Assembly (NCBI RefSeq): GCF_004342225.1
Contig: NZ_SMAR01000005.1
Location: 1 to 64,000, forward strand
Direction of reading: 5' to 3'
Source of the DNA: Martelella mediterranea
GTDB taxonomy: Bacteria > Pseudomonadota > Alphaproteobacteria > Rhizobiales > Rhizobiaceae
Length of the DNA: 64,000 nucleotides
The notes beneath the pieces are model-generated. The model worked only from the letters and a program-made list of their open reading frames with translations, was not told where the DNA came from and searched no databases. Position numbers and translations under genes: made by a program. Of this stretch, positions 2,829 through 19,148 are shown in pieces; within the stretch, counting starts at the first letter, position 1; every line of letters starts with the position of its first letter.

Positions 2829-4358
2829 TTACTGCGAGCCCCGGTCGGCATTGGCGATCCCGCCGGTCGCGCCGGCAAGCTTGCGGGTTTGGCTGACGCC
2901 TCTGACGATCAGGGGCAGCACCCAGATGACGATCGTGAAGAGGCCTAGTCCGGCGGCGATCGGGCGTTCGAAGAAGCCCAGGAAGTTCCCGTCGGCGATG
3001 ATCATTGATGTGAGGAAGTTTTTCTCGACGAGCGGGCCGATCACGATGCCCAGGATGATCGGAGCGATCGGAAACCCCTTGCTCTCGAGAATGAAGGCGA
3101 TCACGCCCATGGCCAGCATCACGCCGACACCGAAGACCGAGTTGTTGACCGCGTAGGAGCCGACGATGCAGAAGGCGAGAATGGAGGCGTTGAGATAGGT
3201 GCGCGACAGGCGGAAGATCGAGCGCGAAAAGCGTACGGCAAGCCATCCGAGCGGGATGATCAGCAGGTTCGCCAGCGCAAAGACGATCATGACCGCGTAG
3301 AAGTTCTGGGGATTGTTGATGAAGATTGTCGGGCCGGGATTCATGCCCTTCATCACCAGGACACCTACGGCAATGGCCGTGACAGCATCGCCGGGAATGC
3401 CGAAGACCATGGCCGGGATCCACGCCGAACTCAGCGCGGCATTGTTGGTCGCGGAGGCCTCCACCAGTCCTTCGGAATGTCCGGTCCCAAATTTTTCCGG
3501 CGTTTTCGAGAATTTCTTCGAGATGGCATAGGAAATCCAGGCGCCGAGATCGCCGCCGGCGCCGGGCAGAGCGCCGATCACCGTGCCGAACGCGCTGCCG
3601 CGAAGCACATTGAACTTGTGACGCCAAAGCGTGCCCACCATACCGGCAAGCGGGTTGCCGATCTTCATGACCGGTTCGCGCTTGCCAGGCTCGCCGGCCT
3701 TGTGCCGGAGGATTTCGGACAGGGCGAACATGCCGATCATGGCCGGTATGAAGCTGATGCCGCCCATCAGTTCCGTCCAGCCGAAGGAAAAGCGTGGCGT
3801 GGCAGTCAGCGGGTCGAGGCCGACGGTTGCGATGAACAGGCCGAGAAGCAGCGAAAGCGTTCCCTTGACCTTGCTTCCCGAACTGATCAGCGCCGCGCAT
3901 GACAGCCCCAGCATGGCCAGCCAGAAATATTCGAAACTCGAGAACTGCAGTGCGATCTTGCCGAGGGCCGGCGCGATGAAGAGCAGGGCGACAAAGCCGA
4001 TCATGCCGCCGACCGATGACGAGCAGATGGAAATGCCCAGCGCCTTCGCCGGCCGCCCGGCCTTGGTCATGGCATAGGCCTCGTCGACATAGGCCGCGGA
4101 GGCCGGGGTGCCGGGAATGCGCATCAGCGCTCCGGGGATGTCGCCCGCAATGATGGCCATCGTGGTGCAGGCCACGATTGCTGCGATGGCGGGAACCGGA
4201 TCCATGTAGAAGGAGAAAGGCACAAGCAGCGCCGTCGCCATCGTGGCGGTGAGGCCGGGAATGGCCCCGACGAAAAGGCCGAAAGTCGCTGCGGCGCAGA
4301 TCACCAGCAATGTATAGGGCGTGATGACAAGTTCGATTGCTTCGAGAAAGACATGCAT
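2829..4358 (-). CDS. Tripartite tricarboxylate transporter, large permease (TctA family)
   Basis: A 509-residue TctA-type integral membrane protein, the usual length for the family, with about a dozen hydrophobic segments. It has the family's early glycine/proline-rich stretch (GAIPGLTATMATALLVPFSF) and a second copy of that pattern (ALPGAGGDLGAWISYA). With the small permease (TctB) and the periplasmic binding protein (TctC) upstream it forms a complete secondary TTT carboxylate importer driven by an ion gradient. TctB ends 12 bases before its start, so the two permeases are probably translated from one mRNA. The ligand cannot be read from the sequence. Confidence 0.93.
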   Translation of the reverse strand: MHVFLEAIELVITPYTLLVICAAATFGLFVGAIPGLTATMATALLVPFSFYMDPVPAIAAIVACTTMAIIAGDIPGALMRIPGTPASAAYVDEAYAMTKAGRPAKALGISICSSSVGGMIGFVALLFIAPALGKIALQFSSFEYFWLAMLGLSCAALISSGSKVKGTLSLLLGLFIATVGLDPLTATPRFSFGWTELMGGISFIPAMIGMFALSEILRHKAGEPGKREPVMKIGNPLAGMVGTLWRHKFNVLRGSAFGTVIGALPGAGGDLGAWISYAISKKFSKTPEKFGTGHSEGLVEASATNNAALSSAWIPAMVFGIPGDAVTAIAVGVLVMKGMNPGPTIFINNPQNFYAVMIVFALANLLIIPLGWLAVRFSRSIFRLSRTYLNASILAFCIVGSYAVNNSVFGVGVMLAMGVIAFILESKGFPIAPIILGIVIGPLVEKNFLTSMIIADGNFLGFFERPIAAGLGLFTIVIWVLPLIVRGVSQTRKLAGATGGIANADRGSQ

Positions 4359-4370
4359 GGTCGTTTCTCC

Positions 4371-4874
4371 TCACCCGAGAATGCCGACCGGCAACGGAAC
4401 GCGAAGTCCGTTGACGAAGAGGAAGTAGATGAACACCGTCAGAAATGCTGCATAGAGGCCGCCGCGCACCAGGCCGCCGCCGCCGATGCGGATCATCAGC
4501 AGGATGAACAGGAAGGTAAGCGGCAGGAAGCCGACGGATTCCAGAAGCAGGATGTAGAGGCCAAGGCTCACCAGCACTGTGACCGGAAACCAGGTGAAAT
4601 CCTTGCGTTTGAACAGCACGGCTGCATGACGGCGCAGCATCGCGATTTCCGCGCGTCCCTGAAACGCCAGGATGCCGCCCGCCAGAACGAAGGCGCAGCC
4701 GATGATGATGGGCAGGGTTCCCCCGCCGATGGTCATGCCGCCGAGCCCTTCCATCCGCGTTCCGGTGACAGCCAGAACCACGCCACCGATCACGAAAAGC
4801 AATCCGAGGACGGTGTCCGGAACGCCGGTGGCGACGCGATCTGCATTGTCGTCTTCTGGTGAGGTGTCACTCAT
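4371..4874 (-). CDS. Tripartite tricarboxylate transporter, small permease (TctB family)
   Basis: A 167-residue protein with four predicted membrane segments, typical of TctB. The first segment is around residues 20-40 and the last (GGLYAAFLTVFIYFLFVN) is near the C-terminus. The N-terminus is acidic and polar. It lies between the tctC-like and tctA-like genes, the canonical order. The gap to tctC is 123 bases, the largest inside the transporter set. Function as accessory membrane subunit is inferred from the family and context. Confidence 0.88.
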   Translation of the reverse strand: MSDTSPEDDNADRVATGVPDTVLGLLFVIGGVVLAVTGTRMEGLGGMTIGGGTLPIIIGCAFVLAGGILAFQGRAEIAMLRRHAAVLFKRKDFTWFPVTVLVSLGLYILLLESVGFLPLTFLFILLMIRIGGGGLVRGGLYAAFLTVFIYFLFVNGLRVPLPVGILG

Positions 4875-4997
4875 GGCCTCACTCCTTTCCGTTGGTGTCG
4901 CGAGCAGACGGCCGAAGGCACTCCGGCCGGGATACGGCCGAAAAGAACCGAGTTTCAGATGTCGAATGGAGTGCCTTCGGCGGCGCGGTTCGGTCCG

Positions 4998-5960
4998 TCA
5001 GTCCTTGACGAGACCGGCGGCGTTCATGGCCTTGCCGAAGGCCTCGTCACGCTGGGCGAGGTAGTCGACGAAGGCGTCGCCGCCTTCCCACACGACGCCG
5101 TAGGAGCGCTTGGCCATCAGGTCGGCGAATGCGGGGCTGCTGACGACATCGGCCATGACCTCAATCAGCGTCGCGCTGACGTTGTCGGGGAGGTCGCTTG
5201 GCCCGCCGAGGCCACGCCAGCCATTGATCGGAAAGTCGATACCGGTGCTTTCCTTGATGGTCGGCAGGTCCGGATGTGCCGGATCGCGCTCGGTGCCGAG
5301 GATCGACAGCGCCTTGAGTTCGCCGGCATCGATCAATCCCTGAGCCTCGGGAAGCTGGACGACGCCGACATCGATCGCTCCGGATGCCAGCAATTGCAGG
5401 GCAGGAGCGGCGCCTTCGGTCGGCACCCAGAATGCCCTGTTGCCGTCAAGCTCGTTCACCAGCGTGACATAGGCCAGGTGATTGACGCCGCCCTGATTGG
5501 CGCCGCCGGCCCGGATCGCCGCGGCATTTTCCTCGATCGCGGCGGTAAGCGCGTCCATGCTGTCGAACGGGCCGTCAGTTCTGACGACCACGGCGGACGG
5601 GTCGGCGTTATAAAGGCCGAGCGGCGTGAAATCCTTGTAGGTCAGCTCGGATGTGCCGAGCCAATGGAACATCGACAGTTCCGTGGTGATGATGCCCAGC
5701 GTGTAACCATCGGGATCGGCGTCGGCGATTGCCTTGTGGCCGATGACGCTGCCGCCGCCGGTTCGGTTGACGACATTGATCGGCTGGCCCAGCTCTTCTT
5801 CCATCAGCGTTGCCAGGATCCGTCCGGTGGCATCCGTTCCGCCGCCTGCGCCCCAGGGCACGATCAGCGTGATCGGCCGTTCCGGGTATTCGGCGCACGC
5901 TGCCGAAATACCGCCGACGACGATCACGGTCGTCGCCAGAAGCGTCTTCAGAATATTCAT
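4998..5960 (-). CDS. TctC/Bug-family periplasmic carboxylate-binding protein
   Basis: A 320-residue Bug/TctC solute receptor. I chose the ATG at 5960 because a GGAGGA ribosome site lies just upstream and the protein then opens with a signal peptide (MNILKTLLATTVIVVGG...AACA) before the mature start EYPERPITLIVPW. That motif, followed by GAGGGTDATGR, is the family hallmark and forms the ligand carboxylate-binding loop. It is the first gene of the leftward transporter-aldolase row and diverges from the IclR gene. Organic acids, sugar acids or aromatic acids are the usual ligands of this family. Confidence 0.92.
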   Translation of the reverse strand: MNILKTLLATTVIVVGGISAACAEYPERPITLIVPWGAGGGTDATGRILATLMEEELGQPINVVNRTGGGSVIGHKAIADADPDGYTLGIITTELSMFHWLGTSELTYKDFTPLGLYNADPSAVVVRTDGPFDSMDALTAAIEENAAAIRAGGANQGGVNHLAYVTLVNELDGNRAFWVPTEGAAPALQLLASGAIDVGVVQLPEAQGLIDAGELKALSILGTERDPAHPDLPTIKESTGIDFPINGWRGLGGPSDLPDNVSATLIEVMADVVSSPAFADLMAKRSYGVVWEGGDAFVDYLAQRDEAFGKAMNAAGLVKD

Positions 5961-6384
5961 TGAATTCTCCTCCCAATCTTCCTTTTGGGTTCCGAAAAGA
6001 GCCGACAAGGCCCTGCGGTCCAGAATCCCCCTTTGTTTGACGCGGGCAGGAAAGCCGATGTCCTTTGTGGTCAGAAACGGCCCCGCCGCATCGCAATGGC
6101 GTTGAGCGTCAGATCAAACCTCCCTGTAGCAATACCGCATAATGGAACGCTGTACCGCGAACTGATGCTCTCACTAGAGACTGAATCTGTCAACCTGAAT
6201 CCCAAAAAAAAGAATAGCGTTCCGAATAGTGGGATTTACGGCACGGCGAAGATCGGTTATGGTGTCTCTCGATAAACTCGTTTCAAAATCTATCTTGAGA
6301 CTGAAACGATTTAGATGTTCCGTATATCAGGATTGAATTCCTTATTATGGCAAGCGGGTTCACGGAACGCTTTTGGGGGTAATA
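5961..6384. other. Divergent tctC / iclR promoter region
   Basis: This 424-base region separates the leftward TTT/aldolase genes from the rightward IclR gene. No supported gene lies in it. It is more AT-rich than its surroundings around 6190-6340 and holds the inverted repeat listed separately at 6278-6309, so it probably carries both promoters and the regulator site. Confidence 0.5.
6278..6309. promoter_or_regulatory. Candidate IclR operator (TCGTTTCA ... TGAAACGA)
   Basis: A perfect 8-base inverted repeat, TCGTTTCA and TGAAACGA, with a 16-base spacer, upstream of the IclR gene and in front of the divergent transporter. The TGAAAC/GTTTCA half sites resemble those recorded for KdgR-type IclR regulators. 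Binding by the neighbouring IclR protein is inference. Confidence 0.45.
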
Positions 6385-7263: not shown

Positions 7264-8286
7264 TCACCCGTTATGCAGAGCGAGCACGCTGGAGCGCGCT
7301 ATCAGGCTCGGTTGAACAAAGGTGCGAACGGGCCAAGGGCCTTTACGGCCCGCGCCGATCTGTCGGATGAGCAATTCCGCAGCATGACGACCCATTTCTT
7401 CGACATGCTGGCTGACGGCGCTGATGGTCGGGGTCACCATGGTCATCCAGAGCGCATCGTCATAGGCTACCACCGAGACATCTTCTGGAACGCGCACACC
7501 GTGCTTGCCAAGCGCCACGTAAAGGCGTTGCGAGACGACGCTGTTGGCCGAGAAGATCGCGGTGATCGACCTCGATTTCAGCGCCCCAACAAAACGGTCA
7601 AGACCGGAGGCGATTTCCGCGTCGGAGGATCCGAGCTTGAAAATGAGGTCTTCCGGCACGGCAAGTCCACGCTCCGTGAAGGCTTCGCGCCAGCCCTCGA
7701 TGCGCGCCCGTCCTGTCGTCCACTGGTCGTGATCGATGAGGAGGGCGATCCGTTCATGACCGAAGCCGATCAGATGTTCGGTCGCCATCTTGCCGCCGGC
7801 TCGGTTGTCGCCTGCGACAAGGGCGTTGTCGTCGCTGACGGAGCGGTCGACCTGCAGGACCGGTCGGCCGAAATCGCGCACGCTTGCCACCGCTTCTGCG
7901 GAGACCGGCGTGATCGCGATTGCCGAAACACCCATGGCGATCAGCGACTTCACTGCCGCCCTCTGCTCCTTCGGATCGGCCCGGTCGATGATCAGGATGA
8001 CCTCATAGCCCTCTGCTCGCGCAACCTCCTGAAAACCGGTGGCAAGTTCGGCATAGAAGGGGTCCAGAATGCTCGAGACCACGAGGCCGATCTGTGTGCT
8101 GGAGCCCTGCCTGAGATTGCGGGCATTGAGGTCGGGCACATAGCCGATCTTCTGCGCCGCCGCGACGACGCGCGCCTTGACGTCTGCCGCGACATAACCC
8201 TTGCCGCTGAGTGCGCGCGAGACGGTCGAGGTCGAAAGACCGACCGCCTCCGCGATATCGCCGATCGTGACGCGCTTATCTGCCAT
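7264..8286 (-). CDS. LacI-family transcriptional regulator (module 2)
   Basis: A 340-residue LacI/GalR repressor. The DNA-binding helix-turn-helix and hinge are at residues 5-60 (VTIGDIAEAVGLSTSTVSRALSGKGYV ... AAAQKIGYVPDLNARNL), followed by a periplasmic-binding-protein-like effector domain. It is the last gene of the leftward kinase-isomerase-mannosidase-lyase operon, 29 bases behind the third DapA-like gene. It is convergent with the IclR gene. The two 14-base palindromes between this operon and the divergent ABC transporter fit the LacI consensus, so it probably represses both arms and itself. The inducer is unknown. Confidence 0.93.
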   Translation of the reverse strand: MADKRVTIGDIAEAVGLSTSTVSRALSGKGYVAADVKARVVAAAQKIGYVPDLNARNLRQGSSTQIGLVVSSILDPFYAELATGFQEVARAEGYEVILIIDRADPKEQRAAVKSLIAMGVSAIAITPVSAEAVASVRDFGRPVLQVDRSVSDDNALVAGDNRAGGKMATEHLIGFGHERIALLIDHDQWTTGRARIEGWREAFTERGLAVPEDLIFKLGSSDAEIASGLDRFVGALKSRSITAIFSANSVVSQRLYVALGKHGVRVPEDVSVVAYDDALWMTMVTPTISAVSQHVEEMGRHAAELLIRQIGAGRKGPWPVRTFVQPSLIARSSVLALHNG

Positions 8287-8315: not shown

Positions 8316-9203
8316 TTAGCGCGTTTTCTGGTATCTGTTGAAGTATTCATCAAGAGCGAAAAGACCGGTGCAGTCGCTGCGCGTCGTCAGCCGCCCCAAA
8401 ACGCGTGAGAAACTGGTCAGGCCGACCCCATAATTTTCGCTGAGCAGTGCCTTGGCAGATCCGGGATAGCTCTGCTCCAGCGCCATATCCCCGGCGGTCA
8501 GCAGCAGTGAGAGCGCATCGGTCTCCTCGGTCGCCGCCCGCTCAAGCATGTCCGGAAAGACATTGGCCATGAGACCGCAGAATCCGTCCGCACCGGCCTT
8601 GAACGAGGCCCGAAATGTTGCCACCTCGGCGTTCATAAGCTTCAGCCGGCTGCCGCTGACAATGTCGATCCGGCGCTTGATTCGCGCAAGATCGCAGCAG
8701 GTATCCTTCAAAAAGGTGAAGCGTCCGCTCTGAGCCGCGTATTCAAGCGCCTTGTCTGAAATTAGTCGCTTATAGGGGCGGGGCGCCTCGTAGAGACCGA
8801 GATCGCCGCTGCAATCGGCGATGATCGTCTCAAGGCATGCGAGAAGAGCGTCGTCGTTTTCACCCTCTTCGACGAGGTGTCCGGTCAAAAGCACAGCGCA
8901 ATCGACGCCGCCGATTGCCCTTACGCGCGCAATTGCCTCAGGCCAGGCTTCGTTATCCTCGCAGAACACCGAAGCGGCAATGGGAACGCGCCCCGACACG
9001 GCGCGGACTGAAGCAGCGATGATCTCGGTGCGCTCGGTATCGTTCATCGATAGCGGTTCAGCAGAAAGCCCTGTAACCAGCAGGCCGGCAACGCCTCGCT
9101 CGATATAGAAATCGACGAGGCCCTGAATGGCATCAAGATCGATCTCCCCGTTTTCCAGAAACGGCGTGAGGAGGGGCGGCCAGATTTCGGGTTGGCGGGC
9201 CAT
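8316..9203 (-). CDS. Atypical DapA/NanA-family protein, copy 3
   Basis: A 295-residue DHDPS/NAL-fold protein. The Schiff-base Lys (K166, TFLKDT) and the catalytic Tyr (Y138, LGLYEAPRP) are kept. The pyruvate-carboxylate loop that reads G-T/S-T-G-E in the other two copies is GLSAEP here (residues 45-50). It may therefore use a substrate other than pyruvate or do a different reaction. The start lies 2 bases after the GH38 stop, and the LacI gene follows, so it belongs to the mannosidase operon. A keto-deoxy-sugar or sialic-acid-like lyase is the default guess, with low certainty. Confidence 0.8.
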   Translation of the reverse strand: MARQPEIWPPLLTPFLENGEIDLDAIQGLVDFYIERGVAGLLVTGLSAEPLSMNDTERTEIIAASVRAVSGRVPIAASVFCEDNEAWPEAIARVRAIGGVDCAVLLTGHLVEEGENDDALLACLETIIADCSGDLGLYEAPRPYKRLISDKALEYAAQSGRFTFLKDTCCDLARIKRRIDIVSGSRLKLMNAEVATFRASFKAGADGFCGLMANVFPDMLERAATEETDALSLLLTAGDMALEQSYPGSAKALLSENYGVGLTSFSRVLGRLTTRSDCTGLFALDEYFNRYQKTR

Positions 9204-9205
9204 GG

Positions 9206-11704
9206 TCAGATACCTTCGGACAGGAGGTTAAGTTGGCGGTCGGGCTCGAACTCGAGAAGATCGAGGGTGACGATCTTGCCGGAAGGCGTGACGGCCAGCG
9301 TACGGATTTCGAAAGGTTCGAGGTCGAGCGAGAGCAGATGGCCGCCGGCATAGTCAAGCCCAAGCCGGGCCGCAATCGGGCCGGACGTGTCATTGACGAA
9401 ACGCATAACGGTTGCCGCAGGATCGTCTTCCCAGGGTTTGAGCGCCGTCAGCCGAAGGCCGGGCGCTTCCTCAAGGCCGGAAATCAGCCCGCGCGCGGCG
9501 GGCATGTCGCCAGGATGGAAGCTTTCCATCATCACGCGGGGCGGCATGACCATCATTTCGGCAAGCCGGTTTGCCTCTGCCATATCGTCGCCCGTCTGGG
9601 GCAAAAGCCGCACGCTGAAGCGCTGCAGGCCCTGATCCTGATAGTGATAATGCTCGTTGTCACGCAACTCGCGCGGATCATGCCAGGCAAAGACAGGGCT
9701 TCTCGCGGCGGTGATGCCGATATCGCCGTCGACGCAGTCATAGGCGTATTTGGCGTTGTTGATCACGCTGATCCGCTTGCCATCCGAACCGGCGACGCTG
9801 ACCCAGCGCTGGCCGGGATATTCGAGCCCGTCTGCGGGCCGCTCCACATAGCCATATTGCATCTGGTAGCGCGCGGTACTGGCCGATATCGCCGTCGGAT
9901 AGCGCAGTTTCAGAAGGTGGAGTTCTTCGTGCCAGTCGATCTCGGTGCGGATTTCGAGCGATCGGGCATCGCTGTCGAGCACGAAGAGCTCGGTCAGGCG
10001 AGAGCGTCCGAGACGGACATTGACGCGGATGGCGGCGCGAACGGGGCCGGCATCCTCGATGTGGATGCTCTCGACTTCAAACTGGCGGCCCTGGCCCACA
10101 TAGGTCTCGACCCGGTGGCCCCAGGTGTCGGAACCATCGGCCGATACGACGGTATGGATGGCGCCTTTGGCAGGGGCGAGATCCTGCCCGTTGGCAAGAG
10201 TGACGAATTCGTCAAGCCAGCCGGTCTGCGGGTTGATCGTCACCCGCAGATGCGCGTTCTCGATGGTGATGCCGTGAGCGCGTGCCTGGACCTGCGGTAT
10301 GGCTTGCGGCGCATCGGTTCTTCGCACGCGATAGAGCCTGTGGCCAAAGGCCGGCACCCTGGCGGGAAAGGCAATGCGAGCGCGATAGCGGTCGCGGAAG
10401 ATGTCTTCCTCGCGGATCGTCGCATCGGCTCTGATCTTCTGCCAGGGCGTCTCCTCGCCATCCTCGGCGCTGACGATCCAGTTACCCGGCAGGAAGGAAA
10501 GTTCCAGCTCGGCCGTGATCTCGGCTTCGAATGGATGCGGGTTGAAGACGATGACCGGCTGCGTTTCCTCGTCTGCCGGTATGGCGATGTCGCGAGCGGC
10601 GATCTGCAGGGCGCGGTTGGTGACCCTGTCTGCCGTCGCGATCACGCCGCCAAGGGCATGGACCGCGTCTTCGCAGGCGGGAAGGATCGAGCTTCCGGGC
10701 AGGATGTCGTGGAACTGGTTGAAGAGCAGCGTCTTCCATGCCTCGTCGAGCTTTTCGCGGGGGTACGGGACCCCCTGTGTGGCCGCGGAAAGCGTGGCGT
10801 ACCGCTCCGCCTCCAATAGGGCTGCTTCCGCCTTCAGATTCATCTGCTTGATCTTCGCAAAGGCCGCGTAGCACCCGGCGGCGTGGCGCTGAAGCTCGCC
10901 CTCGTGAACCGGCATGGGCTTGCCGTTCTTCCGGCGCGCCTCAAAATAGCGGTCGGGGCCGGACATGATCAGCTTGCCGAACCGGCCGTCTGCATTAAGC
11001 GCCTCGATGCTCTTCAGGTTTCGCCGGGTCGGGCCGCCGCCATGATTGCCGACGCCATAGAAGACCATGGCCTCGTCCTCAAGCGCCGCGCCGATCTTGC
11101 TGATGGCGGATTCCATATGCCGGTCGACGTCTTCTGCGGTCGTGCAGTATTCATGCGGGATCCGGTAGGCGGCAACCGAGGCGCCGCCCAGACCTTGCCA
11201 TTCAAACAGCGTATGCGGCATGTCGATTTCGTGCGGGCCGGGGCGCAGGAAGCAGTAGGAGGCGATCCGGTGGCCGGCAAGTACCTGCGGCAGGGCCGCG
11301 GAGTGGCCGAAGGGGTCGGCGTTGAGGCCGACATTGGCGATGCCGCCGAAATGCTCAAGCAGATAGCGCTGGCCGATCAGCCCCTGGCGCACAAAGGATT
11401 CGAGGTTCGGCAGATTGCAGTCCGGCTCGACCCACCAGCCGCCGACCATGGCGATGCGTCCGCATGCAACGAGTTCGCGAAGCCGGGCAAAGAGCTTGGG
11501 GTCGCTCTCGCGAATCCAGTCGACGACGGCGACCTGCTCGAAGGTGAAGACGTAATCCTCGAATTCCTCAAGAAGGGCGACGGCTGCGGCAAGCGTCGCG
11601 CGGGCCTCCTGATAGCCTTCCGTCCAGCGCCACAGCCAGACGGGATCGAGATGGGCATGGCCGACCATGTGAATGGTGGCAAAACGCGATTTCTGCTCAG
11701 ACAT
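9206..11704 (-). CDS. Glycoside hydrolase family 38 alpha-mannosidase
   Basis: An 832-residue GH38 retaining, zinc-dependent alpha-mannosidase. The zinc-binding HAHLDPVW motif is at residues 16-23. The nucleophile is D130 in GLNADPFGHSA, and the middle and C-terminal beta-sandwich regions are present, so the length is normal for bacterial GH38. There is no signal peptide, so it should act in the cytoplasm on imported, possibly phosphorylated, mannosides; the family includes 2-O-mannosylglycerate hydrolases. Its start overlaps the SIS gene by 8 bases and the DapA-like gene follows after 2 bases, so it sits inside a tight operon. Confidence 0.93.
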   Translation of the reverse strand: MSEQKSRFATIHMVGHAHLDPVWLWRWTEGYQEARATLAAAVALLEEFEDYVFTFEQVAVVDWIRESDPKLFARLRELVACGRIAMVGGWWVEPDCNLPNLESFVRQGLIGQRYLLEHFGGIANVGLNADPFGHSAALPQVLAGHRIASYCFLRPGPHEIDMPHTLFEWQGLGGASVAAYRIPHEYCTTAEDVDRHMESAISKIGAALEDEAMVFYGVGNHGGGPTRRNLKSIEALNADGRFGKLIMSGPDRYFEARRKNGKPMPVHEGELQRHAAGCYAAFAKIKQMNLKAEAALLEAERYATLSAATQGVPYPREKLDEAWKTLLFNQFHDILPGSSILPACEDAVHALGGVIATADRVTNRALQIAARDIAIPADEETQPVIVFNPHPFEAEITAELELSFLPGNWIVSAEDGEETPWQKIRADATIREEDIFRDRYRARIAFPARVPAFGHRLYRVRRTDAPQAIPQVQARAHGITIENAHLRVTINPQTGWLDEFVTLANGQDLAPAKGAIHTVVSADGSDTWGHRVETYVGQGRQFEVESIHIEDAGPVRAAIRVNVRLGRSRLTELFVLDSDARSLEIRTEIDWHEELHLLKLRYPTAISASTARYQMQYGYVERPADGLEYPGQRWVSVAGSDGKRISVINNAKYAYDCVDGDIGITAARSPVFAWHDPRELRDNEHYHYQDQGLQRFSVRLLPQTGDDMAEANRLAEMMVMPPRVMMESFHPGDMPAARGLISGLEEAPGLRLTALKPWEDDPAATVMRFVNDTSGPIAARLGLDYAGGHLLSLDLEPFEIRTLAVTPSGKIVTLDLLEFEPDRQLNLLSEGI

Positions 11705-12275
11705 TTTCGCTCTCCGCGACGAGTGTTTCCAGACGGGCGCAGATCAGGTGCATGGCAAGCTGGTGCATTTCCTGAATGCGGGCGGTCATCGTGTGGGGTG
11801 AAATGAAGGCGAGGCTGCAATCCTTCGCGATTTCGGCGCCGTTCTGGCCGGTGAAGAGAACGGTTTTGGCGCCTTTTGCCCAGCCGGCGGCAATTCCCGA
11901 GCGGATATTCTCCGACTGTCCGCTTGTGGAAAAGGCAATGACGATATCCCGCGGTCCGGCAAGGGCCGTGACCTGACGGGCGAAAACGGCATTGAAGGAA
12001 AAGTCGTTGCCAATGCAGGTGAGCGCCGAAACATCGGCGGAGAGGCAGGTCGCGGGCAGGGGGCGCCGGTTGGATTTATAGCGGCCGATCAGCTCGCCAC
12101 TGAAATGCAACGCTTCCGCGGCCGAACCGCCATTGCCGAACACATAGACGCAACCGCCCGCACAGACGCTCTGCCAGATCGCGTCCGCGATGGCGATGAT
12201 ATCGGGAAGGCGAGCCCGCATTTCCGCGTTCATGGCAAAATGGGCCGCCATCTCTTCTTCCAGGCTTGCCGTCAT
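11697..12275 (-). CDS. SIS-domain sugar-phosphate isomerase (GmhA-like)
   Basis: A 192-residue single SIS-domain protein. The start at 12275 gives MTASLEEEMAAHF and overlaps the ROK kinase stop by an ATGA. Two motifs match phosphoheptose isomerase: GNGGSAAEALHFSGELIG (residues 48-65) and FSTSGQSENI (residues 115-124). The last binds the sugar phosphate. True GmhA makes sedoheptulose 7-phosphate into heptose phosphate, but next to a sugar kinase and a mannosidase an aldose/ketose phosphate isomerase of hexoses is equally likely. Cytoplasmic; probably acts right after the kinase in the same operon. Confidence 0.85.
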   Translation of the reverse strand: MTASLEEEMAAHFAMNAEMRARLPDIIAIADAIWQSVCAGGCVYVFGNGGSAAEALHFSGELIGRYKSNRRPLPATCLSADVSALTCIGNDFSFNAVFARQVTALAGPRDIVIAFSTSGQSENIRSGIAAGWAKGAKTVLFTGQNGAEIAKDCSLAFISPHTMTARIQEMHQLAMHLICARLETLVAESENV

Positions 12276-13258
12276 TCTCTGATCCTCACCTTGACGCCCG
12301 TGGCGCTGCCGATTTCGTTCCATGCGACGGAGGCCGCAGAAGCGACGCCCGAATTGCGGCCGAAGCCCGTCTTGCGCACCGTCAGGCGTTGACCGACGCC
12401 GGCGGCCATGCTGCTGCCGACGAGCGCCATCGCGGGCGCGAAGAGCTCCCCATCGGCCTCGGTCACGCCGCCGCCGATCACCAGCAGGGCGGGATCGAAC
12501 AGATCGGCGGCCGCGCGCACCGCACGGGCAAGCATGCCCATCGAACTGTGCCAGAAGGCAAGGGCCTCCTCGTCGCCGGCAAGCGCCGCATCGGCGACGT
12601 CGCGCGCGGAATAGGGGCGCGGCGTCGCCGTGCACGTGGCCTTGGCCTCGGTGTAGCGCTTGCCGATCGATGTTCCCGAGACATAGGCTTCAAAACATCC
12701 CGTCAGGCCGCAGTTACAGGCGCGGCCATCGTAAATCAGCGGGATGTGGCCGAGCTCCGACCCGTTGCCGGTATGGCCAGTATAAAGAAAGCCATCGGTG
12801 ATGACGCCGCAGCCAATCCCCGAAGAGACGGTGATATAGGTCACGTCCCTCACCGCGTCGGGGTTGTCCCAGAGCGCCGTGGCGATTGCGCCCGCCGCCG
12901 CGTCATTCTGCAGATAGGCCTTCGCGCCGAAGCTGGTTTCCATCTGCGTTGTCAGCGGTATGCGATCCCAGTCCGGCAGGTTGGGCGGAGACAGGACCAG
13001 GCCTTTTTCGAGGTCGAGCGGACCGCCGCAGGCAATGCCCGTTCCCTCTATGGTGAGCCCGTTCTTTCTGGCGTGGACCTCGGCTGCCCTGCCGAGCCGC
13101 TCGATCAGCGCCAGGCTCGGCTCCGCCCTGACGGGCGAGCGCTCGCGAGACTGAAAGGCGATTGCGCCATCAGCATGCACGAGGCCGACGGCGATCTTGG
13201 TGGCCCCGATATCCACCGCCAGGACGACGGGCGTCATAGTGTCTCTTTGTTCTGCCAT
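12272..13258 (-). CDS. ROK-family sugar kinase
   Basis: A roughly 328-residue ROK protein without an N-terminal DNA-binding domain, so a kinase and not a repressor. It has the phosphate loop VLAVDIGATKIAVG at its start and the ROK zinc signature CNCGLTGCFEAYVSG near the middle. ROK kinases phosphorylate glucose, mannose, fructose, N-acetylmannosamine or N-acetylglucosamine, mostly at O6. The start at 13258 (MAEQRDT) or 13237 (MTPVV) cannot be separated by ribosome-site strength. It is the first gene of the leftward operon facing the LacI operators. Confidence 0.9.
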   Translation of the reverse strand: MAEQRDTMTPVVLAVDIGATKIAVGLVHADGAIAFQSRERSPVRAEPSLALIERLGRAAEVHARKNGLTIEGTGIACGGPLDLEKGLVLSPPNLPDWDRIPLTTQMETSFGAKAYLQNDAAAGAIATALWDNPDAVRDVTYITVSSGIGCGVITDGFLYTGHTGNGSELGHIPLIYDGRACNCGLTGCFEAYVSGTSIGKRYTEAKATCTATPRPYSARDVADAALAGDEEALAFWHSSMGMLARAVRAAADLFDPALLVIGGGVTEADGELFAPAMALVGSSMAAGVGQRLTVRKTGFGRNSGVASAASVAWNEIGSATGVKVRIRE

Positions 13259-13455: not shown

Positions 13456-14805
13456 ATGAATTTTCGTGCTCACTTGAAGCTGTCAACGCTGCTGGCCGCT
13501 GGCTTTGCCTGTGGTCTACCTGCCCTGGCGCAGGCGGAGGAATTGTCCGTTGTCTATCGCGAATCGCCCTATGTGTCGGCGGTCATGGAGGCGGCCAAGG
13601 CCGAATTCGAAGCCGAACACCCCGGCGACACGATCGAGCTCAACGCGATCAGTTCGTCGGCGCGCGACTACTACACCAAGGTTTCGCTGATGAACCAGTC
13701 GGCATCGACGGCGCCTGACATTATCTATGAGGATGGTTTCCAGATCACCGCGGATGCCGCCGCGGGCTATCTCGAGCCGCTGGACGAGCGGCTCTCCGGC
13801 TGGGACGAGTGGGATCAGTTCTCCCAGATCGCGGTCCAGAACGGCAAGTCTTTCGTCGACGGAAAGGTTTACGGCATTCCGCTCGGCACCGACACCCAGG
13901 CCATCTGGTACAACAAGGACCTTCTCGAAAAGGCCGGAGTGGGGGCTGACTGGCAGCCGAAGACCTGGCAGGACATTCTCGATGCCGCGGCCAAGGTGAA
14001 GGAAAACCTCCCCGGCGTCGATCCGATCAATATCTATGTGACGAAGGCCGGCAACGAGGCGAGCACGATGCGGGGTCTGATGAACCTGATCTCTGGCACG
14101 CCGGGCGGGCTCTCTGCAACGCTTTTCGATCCGGAAACGCAGAAATGGATCGTTGGATCCAAGGGCTTCCGCGATGCGCTGGCCTTCCTGAAAACCGCCT
14201 ATGACAACGGCTATCTCGTCTCCGATACCGATCTTCAGGATTCGAGCTTCCAGAACGTTCTGGTCGAACAGCGCGTGCCCGAGGGCAAGGTTGCCATGTT
14301 CATCGACGGCAACTGGATCTGGGCGCGCTGGATCGAGGGTGGCACCGCGCCTTGGGCGGCGTGGAACGAGACGCTCGGCATGGCCAAGATCCCGACGCAG
14401 AATGGCCAGGGCAACGGCTTCACCTCCATGTCCGGCGGCTGGACCATCGCCATGAGCCCGAAGGCCGAGGACAAGGATCTCGCCTTTGATTTCATGACCA
14501 CGGTCGCCAATTTCGAAAACAGCCTGACCTATGCCATTCGCGCCGGATCGATCGGCGTGCGCAAGGACGTCATCGCGGACGAGACCTATCTCGAGACCAA
14601 TCCGACCGCCGGTTTCTTCTCCTCACTGGTTGAGGTGACCAATTTCCGCCCGGCGCTGGAAATCTATCCGCAGGTCTCCTCCCTCATCCAGGAGACGATG
14701 GAGGCCGTAACGGTCGGCGGAGACAGCGTCGAAGACGCCGCCGGCCGCTTCGACCGCCAGCTCACCCGTCTTGCCGGCTCATCGAACGTCGAAAAAGCGA
14801 ACTGA
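13456..14805 (+). CDS. ABC sugar importer, periplasmic binding protein
   Basis: A 449-residue family 1 (MalE/UgpB-like) solute-binding protein. It opens with a signal peptide of about 28 residues ending ALAQA, and an AGGGAGGA ribosome site precedes the ATG. The mature part has the usual sugar-binding patterns: APDIIYEDGFQITADAAAGYLEPLD early, YGIPLGTDTQAIWYNKDLLEKAG in the middle and GNGFTSMSGGWTIAMS later. It is the first gene of the rightward operon SBP-permease-permease-sulfatase-ATPase and faces operator O2. The ligand is probably an oligosaccharide or glycoside that the divergent mannosidase can open. Confidence 0.93.
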   Translation: MNFRAHLKLSTLLAAGFACGLPALAQAEELSVVYRESPYVSAVMEAAKAEFEAEHPGDTIELNAISSSARDYYTKVSLMNQSASTAPDIIYEDGFQITADAAAGYLEPLDERLSGWDEWDQFSQIAVQNGKSFVDGKVYGIPLGTDTQAIWYNKDLLEKAGVGADWQPKTWQDILDAAAKVKENLPGVDPINIYVTKAGNEASTMRGLMNLISGTPGGLSATLFDPETQKWIVGSKGFRDALAFLKTAYDNGYLVSDTDLQDSSFQNVLVEQRVPEGKVAMFIDGNWIWARWIEGGTAPWAAWNETLGMAKIPTQNGQGNGFTSMSGGWTIAMSPKAEDKDLAFDFMTTVANFENSLTYAIRAGSIGVRKDVIADETYLETNPTAGFFSSLVEVTNFRPALEIYPQVSSLIQETMEAVTVGGDSVEDAAGRFDRQLTRLAGSSNVEKAN

Positions 14806-14806
14806 C

Positions 14807-15715
14807 ATGGCGCAAGGGGCAAGCGGAACGGGCCAAGGGCCGGCAGCAGTGCTGATGCGCATTGTGCCGCTTGCCCCGGCCACCCTGATGATCGTCGCCT
14901 TCTTTCTGGTGCCGATCATCTGGGCCATCTACACATCCATGACCAATCTCGGATTGTCGGGCTACGCAGCACGCAATCCGGCCTTCATCGGCTTTGAGAA
15001 CTACTACTATCTCTTTACCGATCCGCGCACATGGGCGGCGCTCGGACGGACGGCGGTGTTCGTCGGCCTCTCCGTTGCCGGGCAGAACATTGTCGGCTTT
15101 TGCATTGCCTATGTGCGGCAGATGGCGACGCCTGCCATCCAGAGTTTGGCCTCGGTCATCGTCATCACCGCCTGGGTGGTGCCGGAAGTCGTTGCGGGCT
15201 TTCTCTGGTACACCTTCCTGCGCGGCGACGAATCCGGCATGAACCAGATTTTCGATATTTTCGGCTTTGCCCACCAGCAATGGCTTCTGACGGCGCCGCT
15301 TGCCGCGGTGATCGTCATCAACATCTGGCGTGGCTGTGCCTTTTCCATGCTCGTCTATTCCGCAGCTCTTCAGGATGTTTCAAGCGAAGTGCTTGAAGCC
15401 GCCGAGATCGACGGGGCAGGGCGCATGCAATCGATCTTCGGCGTCATCCTGCCGATCATCCGCCCGGTGATCGCCATCAATGTGGTGCTGACCACGCTCA
15501 ACACGCTCGGTGTGTTCGGTATCATCTGGATCACCACGGCGGGCGGGCCCGGCACGCGCTCGGAAACGCTGCCGCTCCTGATGTACAATCAGGCCTATGA
15601 TTTCGGCCTTATCGGCTACGGCTCGTCAATCGCCGTCCTGCTGCTTGGCTTCGGCGTCATCGCCTCCCTCATCTATGTCCGTCTGTTCAAAGTGGGAGAA
15701 GCGCGCAATGGCTAA
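14807..15715 (+). CDS. ABC sugar importer, permease 1 (MalF/UgpA-like)
   Basis: A 302-residue inner-membrane permease with six predicted membrane segments. The cytoplasmic EAA loop that contacts the ATPase is visible as EVLEAAEIDGAGRMQSIFGVILPIIRP near residues 200-226. The start at 14807 lies one base after the binding-protein stop, so translation is probably coupled. It pairs with the next gene as the heterodimeric channel. Confidence 0.93.
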   Translation: MAQGASGTGQGPAAVLMRIVPLAPATLMIVAFFLVPIIWAIYTSMTNLGLSGYAARNPAFIGFENYYYLFTDPRTWAALGRTAVFVGLSVAGQNIVGFCIAYVRQMATPAIQSLASVIVITAWVVPEVVAGFLWYTFLRGDESGMNQIFDIFGFAHQQWLLTAPLAAVIVINIWRGCAFSMLVYSAALQDVSSEVLEAAEIDGAGRMQSIFGVILPIIRPVIAINVVLTTLNTLGVFGIIWITTAGGPGTRSETLPLLMYNQAYDFGLIGYGSSIAVLLLGFGVIASLIYVRLFKVGEARNG

Positions 15716-16547
15716 TCTTGCCAAGGCCAAGACCCGCGACCGGCTGGCCGCCGATATCGCGCTCACCTTCGTTGCCATCGCCTTCGTCGTGCCGATGGTG
15801 TGGATGGTGCTGGCGGCCTTCGATGCCGAGGCGACGCTTGCCATTCAACTGCCGGCCCGCTGGAGCCTGACGAATTTCGGCGCGATCCTGACGGAGGATG
15901 TCGCGATCCGTCCCTTCATGAACAGCGTCATCATTTCGGCCGGGACGTCGTGCCTGGTGGTCATCCTCGCGCTCTTTGCCGGCTATCCGTTGTCGCGCTA
16001 CAGGCTGCGCTACGGAAAGCAGTATATCTACACGATCGTCTTTGCCAGCGCGCTGCCGATCACCGCCATCATGGTGCCGATCTATGTGATGTTCGTCCAT
16101 ATCGGCCTCGTCGATACGCTTGCGGGCGTCATCGTCTTCCGCACGGCCGCAGAGCTTCCCTTTGCGGTCTGGCTGATGAAGGGCTTCATGGATGCCATTC
16201 CGACCGATCTGGAAGAGGCGGCGTGGACGGAAGGGGCATCCCGCATGGAAGGCGTCGCCTATATCGTCGTGCCGCTCCTGGCGCCGGGGATCGCGACCAT
16301 CTTCATTCTGTCCTTCATCGAGAACTGGGGCAATTTCTTCGTACCCTTCATCCTGCTGCAAAGCCGCGACAATTATCCGATGGCCGTCTCGCTCTACAGC
16401 TTTTTCGGAGAATATGGCGAGGCCATGTATGGCCAGCTTGCCGCCTTCGCGCTGCTGTACACGGCGCCCACGCTGCTTGTCTATTTCCTGATCCAGAAGC
16501 CGCTGCAGAAGGGTGGTCTCCGGCTTGGCGGCGCGGTCAAGGCCTGA
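15708..16547 (+). CDS. ABC sugar importer, permease 2 (MalG/UgpE-like)
   Basis: A 279-residue permease with six predicted membrane segments and an EAA loop (DLEEAAWTEGASRMEGVAYIVVPLLAP). The start at 15708 overlaps the previous gene by 8 bases, which supports this start over longer in-frame options. It forms the second half of the channel. The sulfatase gene follows 10 bases later in the same operon. Confidence 0.93.
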   Translation: MANLAKAKTRDRLAADIALTFVAIAFVVPMVWMVLAAFDAEATLAIQLPARWSLTNFGAILTEDVAIRPFMNSVIISAGTSCLVVILALFAGYPLSRYRLRYGKQYIYTIVFASALPITAIMVPIYVMFVHIGLVDTLAGVIVFRTAAELPFAVWLMKGFMDAIPTDLEEAAWTEGASRMEGVAYIVVPLLAPGIATIFILSFIENWGNFFVPFILLQSRDNYPMAVSLYSFFGEYGEAMYGQLAAFALLYTAPTLLVYFLIQKPLQKGGLRLGGAVKA

Positions 16548-16557
16548 GGAAGAGATC

Positions 16558-17985
16558 ATGAAAAAGAAGCCTAATATTCTGTTCCTGTTTTCCGACCAGC
16601 ACAGCGTGCGTGCGATGGGTGATTGTGCGGACACGCCGGTGAAAACACCGTCGCTCGACCGCCTGGCCGCAGGCGGCATGCGTTTCGACAACGCCTATTG
16701 CCAGAACCCGCTCTGCGTGCCCAGCCGAGCGAGCCTTCTGACCGGAAAATACTGCCGCACGACCGGCATTTACGACAATCGCCACATCCTCCCCGCCAAC
16801 GGCCCAACGCTGGCGCGCGCGCTCGGCAGCGCCGGATACCGCACCGCGCTTGTGGGCAAGACGCATTTCAACGGCGAGCAGTTCCAGGGCTTTCAGGAAC
16901 GCCCCTATGGCGATCTCTACGGCCAGGCGCACCAGCCGGATCCCGCCCGCCACGCCAACGAATCCGGTCTTGGTGATATCCTGGGCGATGCCGGCCCTTC
17001 AGGCATTCCCCTTGCCATGACGCAGACGGAAATCTGCGTCAGCGAGGCGGCTAAATGGCTGCAGGGTCATGCGGGACGACCGGGAGATGCGCCGTTCTTT
17101 TTGGCCGTCCATTTCGACAAGCCGCATTTTCCGATCAACCCGCCGCGTCGCTTCTTCGAGCGCTTCGCGGGCAGGGTGGAACTACCAGACTATGATCCCG
17201 ACTGGCTTTCCCATGCGCCCGCCTTTGTGCAGAAAGCGGCAGCGGCGAGCGGCACGGCGCATCACCGGGGCGATGATGCGGTGAATGCCCGGGCGCTGGC
17301 TGCCTATTACGGCTGTGTCGAATGGGTCGACGATGCCGTCGGCCGGCTTCTGGATGTGATCGACTATCTCGGTCTCTTCGAGGATACGATCATCATCTAC
17401 GCCTCCGATCACGGTGAGATGGCGGCGCGGCGGGGGCTCTGGCAGAAGACCGTCTTCTATGAGGATTCCGCGCGTGTTCCGCTGATCATCCGCTGGCCGG
17501 GCGTGGCAGAGGCCGGGTGCCGGACGAATGCGCTTGCCGGGCTGATCGACCTTTACCCGACCTTTTGCGCCGCATCGGGAATTACTCCGCCCGACGGTTT
17601 GGAAGGGTGTGACCTCACGCCGGTCATCGCCGGAGGTGAGGCGCCGGACCGTGACCTCTTCTGCGAAAGTGCCGTGTTGAAGCAGCCGGAATATGCCGGT
17701 TGCATGCTGCGCCGCGGCGACTGGAAATACTGCCTCTACCTGGACGGCGGCGAGGAGCTCTACAACCTCGCCGATGATCCCGACGAGTGGAACGATCTCT
17801 CTCAGGCGCCGGGAGAGGCGGCGCTGAAGGCGGATCTGCGGGCAGCGACCGAAGCCTTTTTCAGGCCGGAGGGCTTTGCCGTGCGCTATGCCGCCACCCC
17901 GCGCATGCCCTTCGAGAAGCATTTCTACCCTTATTCAAACCAGTTCATCACCGGCAATGGCGTTGTCTTCGACGCGCGGCCCTGA
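16558..17985 (+). CDS. Type I (formylglycine) sulfatase, cytoplasmic
   Basis: A 475-residue sulfatase of the alkaline-phosphatase superfamily. It has the N-terminal metal-site strand NILFLFSDQH, the maturation signature C-V-P-S-R at residues 53-57 (C53 to be oxidised to formylglycine) followed by ASLLTGK, and the late metal motif YASDHGEM. No signal peptide is present, so it should desulfate its substrate after import. It is placed between the permease and ATPase genes of a sugar importer, so a sulfated sugar ligand is likely. Sequence gives no closer specificity, and a formylglycine-generating enzyme is not in the window. Confidence 0.9.
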   Translation: MKKKPNILFLFSDQHSVRAMGDCADTPVKTPSLDRLAAGGMRFDNAYCQNPLCVPSRASLLTGKYCRTTGIYDNRHILPANGPTLARALGSAGYRTALVGKTHFNGEQFQGFQERPYGDLYGQAHQPDPARHANESGLGDILGDAGPSGIPLAMTQTEICVSEAAKWLQGHAGRPGDAPFFLAVHFDKPHFPINPPRRFFERFAGRVELPDYDPDWLSHAPAFVQKAAAASGTAHHRGDDAVNARALAAYYGCVEWVDDAVGRLLDVIDYLGLFEDTIIIYASDHGEMAARRGLWQKTVFYEDSARVPLIIRWPGVAEAGCRTNALAGLIDLYPTFCAASGITPPDGLEGCDLTPVIAGGEAPDRDLFCESAVLKQPEYAGCMLRRGDWKYCLYLDGGEELYNLADDPDEWNDLSQAPGEAALKADLRAATEAFFRPEGFAVRYAATPRMPFEKHFYPYSNQFITGNGVVFDARP

Positions 17986-18014
17986 CAGACGCGAAACAGC
18001 CGAGGAGGAAACCA

Positions 18015-19148
18015 ATGGCCGGCTTTACCCTGAAAAATCTGAGCAAGTCCTACGGTGCGCTGGAAGTCATCAAGGGCATTGAACTTGAGGTGCGCGACGG
18101 CGAGTTCATCGTTTTTGTCGGCCCTTCCGGCTGCGGTAAATCCACGCTGCTGCGCATGATTGCCGGGCTGGAGGAGGTCAGCGGCGGCGATCTGTTGATC
18201 GGGGAGAAGCGCTGCAATGATATTCCGGCCAAGGCGCGCGGTATTGCCATGGTGTTTCAGTCCTATGCGCTCTATCCGCACAAGACCGTTTATGAAAACA
18301 TGTCGTTCGGCCTCAAGCTCGCCAAACGTCCGAAGGATGAGATCGATAGCAAGGTGCGCGCGGCGGCCGGCATTCTGCACATCGAGCATCTGCTGGAGCG
18401 GCGCCCCAGTCAACTCTCGGGCGGTCAACGCCAGCGCGTTGCCATCGGCCGGGCGATCGTCCGCGACCCGCAGGTGTTTCTGTTCGACGAGCCGCTGTCG
18501 AACCTTGATGCGGCGCTGCGTGTCCACATGCGGCTCGAGCTATCGAAACTGCATGACGACCTTGGCACCACCATGGCCTATGTGACCCACGACCAAATCG
18601 AGGCGATGACGCTTGCCGACCGGATCGTGGTGCTTGACCATGGCGATGTGCAGCAGGTGGGCACCCCGCTGGAGCTCTATCACTTGCCGCAAAACCTGTT
18701 CGTTGCGGGCTTCATAGGTTCGCCGAAGATGAACTTTCTCGAAGGGGCCATCGCCGCCGTGGAAGCCGACGCGATTATTGTGGAGGTGCCCGGGTTTGCT
18801 CGGGTTTCCGTGCCGGTTCGCCCTGCTTCTGATACGCGCAGCGGCGACACGGTGACGATCGGCATCCGCCCGGAACATATCGACCCCGCTGGCGATGCTG
18901 GTGGTTTTGCCTGCGCTATCGAGGTTGCCGAGAATATTGGCGATCATGCCATGCTGCAGTTGCAGGCGGCAGGGGGGCAGTCGCTGATGGTGAAAGCAAG
19001 CGGTGATACGTTCTGGAGCCGCGGGGGCGCATACCCTGTTACCTTTCAGCCGGACGCTTTGCATCTCTTTGATGATAGAGGTACGGCGTTTTCCAGGATC
19101 AACCGTCCGAAAGTGCTGGGCGGCGTGGATGGATTTCAGTCAGCTTGA
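18015..19148 (+). CDS. ABC sugar importer, ATPase (UgpC/MalK family)
   Basis: A 377-residue ATPase. Walker A is GPSGCGKST (residues 36-44), the Q-loop lies in MVFQSYALYPHKTVYENM, the signature is LSGGQRQRVAIGRA, Walker B is VFLFDEPLSNLD and the switch is YVTHDQIEAM. A C-terminal OB-fold (TOBE) regulatory domain follows. A GAGGAGGAAACC ribosome site precedes the ATG at 18015. It closes the rightward operon of module 2 and powers the two permeases. Such MalK-type subunits are sometimes shared between importers. Confidence 0.94.
   Translation: MAGFTLKNLSKSYGALEVIKGIELEVRDGEFIVFVGPSGCGKSTLLRMIAGLEEVSGGDLLIGEKRCNDIPAKARGIAMVFQSYALYPHKTVYENMSFGLKLAKRPKDEIDSKVRAAAGILHIEHLLERRPSQLSGGQRQRVAIGRAIVRDPQVFLFDEPLSNLDAALRVHMRLELSKLHDDLGTTMAYVTHDQIEAMTLADRIVVLDHGDVQQVGTPLELYHLPQNLFVAGFIGSPKMNFLEGAIAAVEADAIIVEVPGFARVSVPVRPASDTRSGDTVTIGIRPEHIDPAGDAGGFACAIEVAENIGDHAMLQLQAAGGQSLMVKASGDTFWSRGGAYPVTFQPDALHLFDDRGTAFSRINRPKVLGGVDGFQSA

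Follow-up and report, generated by a model that had tools for sequence, protein, structure and literature searches.

The whole stretch of DNA analysed here, 64,000 nucleotides of Martelella mediterranea and hereafter called the window, encodes next to an alpha-mannosidase-like hydrolase a DHDPS-like protein whose signature loop departs from the G-X-X-G-E sequence of DHDPS and NAL proper. The locus raises the question of what such a protein catalyses, and above all whether it still acts by pyruvate chemistry. A sequence-only reading had regarded the loop as lost and had proposed a non-pyruvate substrate or a new reaction in the mannosidase operon.

Gene, predicted fold and substituted loop

The reading frame 8316–9203 lies on the minus strand and begins with an ATG at 9203, 2 bases past the stop of the GH38 gene. 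The following elements have been located in it:

8316–9203, minus strand: DHDPS-like Schiff-base aldolase of the CQSSE/GLSAEP branch (295 aa, protein P0001)
9054–9071, minus strand: GLSAEP loop, residues 45–50, replacing G-X-X-G-E (sequence alignment)
8790–8792, minus strand: Tyr138, invariant in 89 of 89 relatives
8706–8708, minus strand: Lys166, the expected Schiff-base lysine, invariant in 89 of 89 relatives

The protein is placed in the DHDPS/NAL superfamily by (i) the PF00701 profile, with 62.9 bits against a curated cut-off of 22.1; (ii) a predicted barrel fold; (iii) the Schiff-base lysine and the conserved tyrosine, K166 and Y138, whose retention the sequence-only reading had correctly observed. 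The AlphaFold2 model has a mean pLDDT of 93.7, with the lowest confidence at the loop (mean 79, residues 41–50) and at the C-terminus (76). This structure prediction, suggested in the same reading, matches DHDPS, NAL and HOGA structures with VIA Z scores of about 30 (up to 30.8) over about 280 residues.

GLSAEP does stand in place of the canonical loop, at residues 45–50. To call the loop lost is nevertheless too strong, as it is substituted and aligns without gaps to DapA sequences of the PDB, in the register G45-L46(X1)-S47(X2)-A48-E49. The first glycine and the glutamate are kept, and the inner glycine is replaced by Ala48; in S. aureus DHDPS, with the loop GTTAE (3daq alignment), alanine likewise occupies the fourth place. 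The two other paralogues of the window, at 813–1703 and 1798–2718, carry the intact loops GSTGE and GTTGE, in agreement with the earlier description. Both are encoded on the minus strand (813–2718) beside tripartite tricarboxylate transporter-like genes at 2829–6008. In Martelella lutilitoris (L021) a TctA-like gene and DHDPS-like reading frames also occur near the aldolase locus.

Comparison with characterised enzymes

DapA gives the best PDB sequence match (E 8.5e-14) and shares with the window protein the fold, the lysine and tyrosine and the register of the loop. It differs at Thr44, Tyr107 and Arg138, which correspond to Leu46, Leu110 and Pro143, the fourth residue of the set, Tyr133, being retained as Tyr138; these positions were taken from the alignment with A. 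baumannii DapA and are given in E. coli DapA numbering. The functional roles of Arg138 and of Thr44, Tyr107 and Tyr133 are described in excerpts of PMC3188589 and PMC5380162.

NanA/NAL (EC 4.1.3.3) has in common with the protein the superfamily, the barrel and the Lys/Tyr pair, and Foldseek ranks C. glutamicum NAL (5c54) first for the model. The wider branch further resembles NanA in its operon logic, which combines a sialidase-fold protein, a YhcH-type anomerase and a lyase. In contrast to NAL, GXXGE is replaced in the window protein, and the sugar-binding places Asp191 and Glu192 are occupied by Val194 and Ala195 (via the DapA alignment). The NAL-to-DapA residue equivalence follows PMC5380162 (in part), according to which C. 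glutamicum NAL likewise lacks the usual residues at Asp191 and Glu192.

All equivalog profiles score well under their cut-offs: 24.3 against 382 and 37.4 against 281 bits for the NAL models of NCBIfam, 55 against 206.15 bits for DapA (TIGR00674), and 40.7 against 373.95 bits for KdgD, the 5-dehydro-4-deoxyglucarate dehydratase (TIGR03249). DapA, NanA and KdgD are thus ruled out as the identity of the protein by profile cut-offs and alignment. The proposal of a new reaction in the mannosidase operon therefore holds in so far as the protein is by sequence none of these three and probably has another substrate; a pyruvate-free chemistry is not supported.

The KdgD score, so far under its cut-off, also speaks against a dehydratase of a 2-keto-3-deoxy sugar acid, similar to KdgD or to the L-2-keto-3-deoxyarabonate dehydratase of the same superfamily. 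Such an enzyme would suit the weak similarity to both dehydratases and an Agrobacterium relative adjoining an ABC transporter and a gene annotated as phosphoglycerate dehydrogenase, but no ketoglutarate-semialdehyde dehydrogenase occurs among the annotated neighbour clusters, which cover a minority of reading frames, and we consider this explanation rather unlikely. Human 4-hydroxy-2-oxoglutarate aldolase (HOGA) matches the model with a VIA Z of 30.5 and is a pyruvate aldolase with a residue other than threonine at X2 (Gly-Ser-Asn-Gly-Glu; PMC3188589, in part). Unlike the window protein, it retains the inner glycine and the X1 hydroxyl.

A branch of the superfamily with its own loop

Two sets of relatives were compiled. 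A scan of genome contigs, in which 80 of 207 matches were kept, provided 79 loci with 32–93% identity, many of them extending less than 8 kb on a side. The 89 rows of the alignment were selected with BLAST E <1e-30 against the window protein, and they include some Martelella-type species twice. Alignment A1 holds 42 rows, 41 of the 79 loci having no row in it, and the tree excludes L002, L003, L004 and L008.

Across the 89 rows the loop shows the following features: (i) the first position is Cys in 80, Gly in 8 and Ser in 1; (ii) X1 is Gln in 76, Leu in 12 and Asn in 1; (iii) X2 is Ser, and the loop glutamate is present, in every row; (iv) the fourth position is Ser in 78, Ala in 8 and Thr in 3. 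Additional signatures of the alignment are YECPxPYKRL and FLKDTCCD. GLSAEP is identical in 8 Martelella-type rows (some the same species twice), while most of the branch, found in Bacillota, Pseudomonadota, Verrucomicrobiota and others, carries CQSSEM. In the tree, the branch is separated from five DapA-like outgroup rows with support of 100/100, the outgroup branches being long, and within it a GLSAEP clade (99/97) stands against the remainder (99/92). As judged from alignment and tree, GLSAEP marks a Martelella-type sister clade of the CQSSE branch, and the altered loop belongs to the branch as a whole.

The copies in named Martelella records are 90 and 93% identical to the window protein, and an orthologue at L117, in the genome G180 from a different family of the same order, has 55% identity and the same GLSAEP loop. 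Besides the genome of the window itself, G180 alone yielded a close relative in a sample of 397 genomes of the order; in a sample of 385 genomes of the class, searched at 1e-60, only the own genome matched. These copies and L117 rule out that GLSAEP is private to this genome. In all 10 pairs among five Martelella-type copies dN/dS is 0.15–0.45, and together with the syntenic orthologue in L117 this rules out a sequencing error or decay as the source of the loop.

The same values bear on the idea that the window clade has no catalytic function and acts as a sensor or binding protein. The leucine at X1 and the loss of the Tyr107 equivalent might be understood in that way, but Tyr138 and Lys166 are kept under the constraint just given and the syntenic L117 orthologue has identical residues, which leaves a non-catalytic role very improbable.

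A search of the PDB at 1e-30 with the window protein as query found no solved structure of the branch, and the best PDB match to the branch profile (4.7e-28) is a canonical DapA, with no branch member. No reported activity of any member was found in the literature searched. In the plasmid records listed (40 of 46), genes of the branch carry no annotation or just the name "dihydrodipicolinate synthase family protein". CQSSE/GLSAEP is a large, uncharacterised branch of PF00701. Its members probably cleave an acidic sugar, for instance Kdo or KDN, and so yield pyruvate and a simple sugar.

Carboxylate binding and proton relay

The meaning of the substitution can be considered from published pyruvate adducts of homologues. 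In NanA of F. nucleatum (FnNanA) the X2 hydroxyl, together with the backbone nitrogen of X1, bonds to the pyruvate carboxylate (PMC6213981), and in human HOGA it is held by the backbone amides of X1 and X2. In the latter enzyme the X1 hydroxyl and a tyrosine act in a proton relay, the loop glutamate is salt-bridged to a lysine and, according to the source, an arginine, the removal of the X1 hydroxyl lowers activity, and glutamine at X2 raises KM 25-fold (PMC3188589).

Ser47, Glu49, Tyr138, Lys166, Lys251 and Arg267 are each invariant in 89 of 89 relatives of the window protein. By alignment, Lys251 and Arg267 are plausible counterparts of the HOGA lysine and arginine that salt-bridge the loop glutamate. 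Because Ser47 and Glu49, with Lys251 and Arg267, are invariant, carboxylate binding can survive the substitution. X1 is leucine here and glutamine in most rows, and the hydroxyl of the proton relay is therefore missing; Leu110 and Pro143 align with Tyr107 and Arg138 of E. coli DapA. From these residues, the variant loop is a real and constrained one in an unstudied aldolase branch, and pyruvate chemistry is more likely to have been kept than lost. The non-pyruvate substrate proposed earlier is unsupported, given the invariant Ser47 at X2 and Glu49 and the neighbours of branch genes, which point to an ulosonic acid.

Neighbours of the branch genes

Partner counts refer to BLAST clusters of neighbouring reading frames, with one to three representatives tested per cluster and most frames unannotated. 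A sialidase-like BNR_2 protein neighbours the aldolase in 17 of 79 loci. A model of this partner, predicted from an alignment of its own, resembles sialidases along the entire length (best VIA match Z 37.4, 305 residues, rmsd 2.2), and 49 of the 50 VIA rows listed are named sialidase, neuraminidase or Nan protein. The likeness appeared in fold searches alone, phmmer finding no PDB relative at 1e-8. Membership of GH33 is not claimed, because the usual N-terminal arginine motif of sialidases was not found on inspection by eye.

A YhcH-family protein occurs in 9 of 79 loci, on the aldolase strand in 5 of the 9, and the one representative tested has 128 bits for PF04074; YhcH opens Neu5Ac for its aldolase NanA (PMC8141875, in part). 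A GH106-like rhamnosidase is present in 10 of 79 loci, three members giving 55–79 bits over part of the model. Side chain C of RG-II is alpha-L-Rhap-(1->5)-alpha-D-Kdop (PMC11288761, in part), a structure that fits the GH106-like and sialidase-fold partners. Other neighbours across the 79 loci are IclR regulators and TRAP or ABC transporters.

The genome of the window contains a second copy of the CQSSE type (L118, 4921–10129), which shares its operon with TctC/TctA genes of a tripartite tricarboxylate transporter and with a gene for a sialidase-like protein. On a plasmid of a wastewater Klebsiella (L102, 6695–11962) an FGGY kinase, the aldolase and an "exo-alpha-sialidase" are located between insertion sequences, together with a weak FucI C-terminal match annotated as "signal transduction protein"; no near match to this operon was found in E. 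coli genomes.

Possible routes for D-arabinose

FucI also isomerises D-arabinose, and ribulokinase can then yield D-ribulose-5-phosphate. FucI lies within 8 kb of the aldolase in 10 of 79 loci, against about 0.24 expected, a Poisson figure that serves only as a guide because related genomes are not independent and the FucI density was assumed. The one FucI representative tested has 1052 bits (cut-off 775). FGGY ribulokinase is found in 5 of 79 loci and accompanies FucI in 3 of the 10 FucI loci (one cluster member tested, 711 bits, cut-off 428).

A second set of neighbours consists of PfkB kinases (8 of 79 loci), RbsD/FucU (6 of 79) and a KpsF/KdsD-like SIS isomerase (7 of 79; 131 bits, under the cut-off of 203.7). 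PfkB with an arabinose-5-phosphate-isomerase-like SIS would reach the same endpoint, ribulose-5-phosphate, via non-homologous enzymes. None of the 79 loci contains FucI together with SIS or PfkB. In a search of 49 of 50 genomes chosen from those of the 79 loci, with L062 left out, a SIS/PfkB locus was present in 5 of 11 genomes without FucI against 2 of 38 with FucI (Fisher p 0.004, post hoc).

The eight searched genomes with a FucI locus have a single FucI, by its coordinates the one at the aldolase locus. In these eight, a stretch of 12 kb to either side on the contig of the locus contains no Aldolase_II (FucA type) match; the nearest are at about 12 kb (G081) and 72 kb (G070), and in the remaining six genomes the FucA-type match is on other contigs of draft assemblies. 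A plain L-fucose pathway at the FucI loci is disfavoured, since no FucA-type match is nearby. Within one Paenibacillus genus, 43 of 51 genomes have FucI and 9 an aldolase-profile match (one borderline, 5.7e-46), so that co-occurrence there is uninformative.

FucI and ribulokinase act on ketoses, and could serve an enzyme whose altered loop no longer binds a carboxylate and which cleaves an uncharged ketose or aldose, such as a mannose-derived ketose, with no pyruvate formed. The leucine or glutamine at X1 and the exchange of the loop glycine for serine or alanine in most rows agree with such a change. It is unlikely all the same: Ser47 and Glu49 are invariant, the PfkB and KdsD-like loci have no FucI-type step, and the sialidase-fold and YhcH-family partners indicate an ulosonic acid.

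If instead the sialidase-like and pentose genes were incidental, the enzyme might be a pyruvate aldolase for a short keto-deoxy acid (KDG, KDGal or KDX). KDG kinase is a possible identity of the PfkB neighbours, and KDX is among the compounds cleaved by NanA and human NPL (PMC13220900, in part). Four PfkB proteins were tested, however, and the best-scoring model is ribokinase for L030, L103 and L104, under its cut-off, and IolC-like for L084; cyclic ulosonates are also the better match for the YhcH-family and sialidase-fold partners, and a short substrate is distinctly unlikely.

The mannosidase locus of the window

The genes surrounding the aldolase are as follows:

7264–8286, minus strand: LacI-type regulator, downstream gene (PF00356, PF13377)
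9206–11704, minus strand: GH38 alpha-mannosidase-like hydrolase, directly upstream (PF01074, PF09261, PF07748 above cut-off)
11697–12275, minus strand: SIS_2 sugar-phosphate isomerase, GmhA-like, 192 aa (PF13580, 68 bits; ATG at 12275 inferred)
12272–13258, minus strand: ROK sugar kinase (PF00480, 188.8 bits; reading frame to 13309, ATG at 13258 inferred)
13456–14805, plus strand: ABC transporter substrate-binding protein of a divergent operon (reading frame; 69% identical in L117; function read from sequence)
14771–15715, plus strand: ABC permease (reading frame; 79% in L117; function read from sequence)
15597–16547, plus strand: ABC permease (reading frame, start probably later; syntenic permease in L117; function read from sequence)
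16513–17985, plus strand: sulfatase (PF00884, 168 bits; 74% in L117)
17787–19148, plus strand: ABC ATPase (reading frame, start probably later; an ATPase-like frame occupies the corresponding position in L117; function read from sequence)

The order is thus ROK, SIS_2, GH38, aldolase and LacI on the minus strand, and substrate-binding protein, two permeases, sulfatase and ATPase on the plus strand. L117 shares this arrangement, the ROK gene there having no separate call. Against the gmhA profile the SIS_2 protein scores 151.7 bits, under the cut-off of 209.45. The sulfatase at 16513–17985, between permeases and ATPase and kept in L117, suggests a sulfated substrate.

D-arabinose genes are absent from the window locus. 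In Paenibacillus L076 and L092 an ABC transporter, GH38, SIS_2, ROK and the aldolase follow consecutively, with identities to the window proteins of 35–36% (GH38), 30% (SIS_2), 31–32% (ROK) and 37–38% (aldolase), and in L061 a GH38 gene without SIS-ROK adjoins the aldolase. L061, L076 and L092 fall in two places of the CQSSE clade, and the link with GH38 therefore arose repeatedly or was transferred. Given the GH38-SIS-ROK setting, KDN is a possible substrate in the window, as is Kdo derived from a mannosyl-Kdo glycan. The simplest reading of the locus is a mannose-centred pathway, with which the KDN and mannosyl-Kdo variants are equally compatible.

Proposed reaction and substrate

Because of the sialidase-fold, YhcH-type and D-arabinose-route neighbours, we favour an aldolase that releases pyruvate from 3-deoxy-ulosonic acids, chiefly Kdo. 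As to the general form of this proposal, in which a functional Schiff-base (class I) aldolase from an uncharacterised branch of the DHDPS superfamily cleaves a 3-deoxy-2-ulosonic acid to pyruvate and an aldose, the chances appear to us evenly balanced. What has been observed comprises the motif with its conservation, the fold of the model, the tree and the operon partners; from these we infer the substrate, the products and every catalytic step. Lys166 would make an imine with the 2-keto group and Tyr138 would handle the proton, while the GLSAEP loop, by analogy with homologues, would still grip the carboxylate by backbone amides and Ser47. For the CQSSE majority the best candidate substrate is Kdo, with D-arabinose and pyruvate as products. 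For the window clade it would be a mannose-tied ulosonic acid, either KDN, giving mannose and pyruvate, or Kdo that has been detached from a mannosyl-Kdo glycan. Mannose would be liberated by GH38 and phosphorylated by the ROK kinase, and the SIS enzyme would isomerise the product to fructose-6-phosphate.

The reaction proposed for the branch, Kdo to D-arabinose and pyruvate, resembles EC 4.1.2.23, which we take to be 3-deoxy-D-manno-octulosonate (Kdo) aldolase, a likeness drawn from gene context. To our knowledge, no gene is known for Kdo aldolase (EC 4.1.2.23). The activity stands in the "Validated orphan activities" table of a 2007 survey, ranked "difficult" (PMC1940265, in part), and the reaction itself is given in PMC4412817 (in part). 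With pyruvate as one partner, NAL-type enzymes form KDO when the other is D-arabinose and KDN when it is mannose (PMC4016182, in part). A special branch for Kdo cleavage is not required, since canonical NALs already perform it; both KDO and KDN are substrates of NanA and human NPL (PMC13220900, in part). No gene for a bacterial catabolic Kdo aldolase was found among the literature matches listed, subscription journals lying outside the search, in which PMC4016182 and PMC4412817 were represented in part; an L-KDO aldolase engineered from E. coli NAL is described in one of these two.

A wider proposal is put forward tentatively, as a possibility. The CQSSE/GLSAEP branch may be the missing bacterial catabolic aldolase for Kdo (EC 4.1.2.23) and KDN, with a rebuilt alpha-keto-acid loop that works without the classical Thr/Tyr proton relay. 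In Firmicutes it would serve the breakdown of RG-II side chain C, through rhamnosidase, Kdo hydrolase, Kdo aldolase and a D-arabinose route, and in the window clade the same chemistry would be joined to mannose and sulfate removal. If true, a gene would be assigned to an activity surveyed as gene-less, a Kdo catabolic pathway would be predicted in soil and gut Firmicutes, which might use plant rhamnogalacturonan II or lipopolysaccharide, and a pyruvate aldolase would be recognised that works without the textbook GXXGE loop and proton relay.

Other members of the branch have different surroundings. A short contig of an order relative (L120, 1–14107) carries three copies with different transporters, one of which adjoins a PfkB kinase and has the variant KDVSCD at the Schiff-base lysine. 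In rhizobial plasmid relatives (L104 and L106) the clusters include ThiF-type adenylyltransferase, shikimate dehydrogenase, VCBS-repeat and ribokinase genes, and this differing context suggests further substrates.
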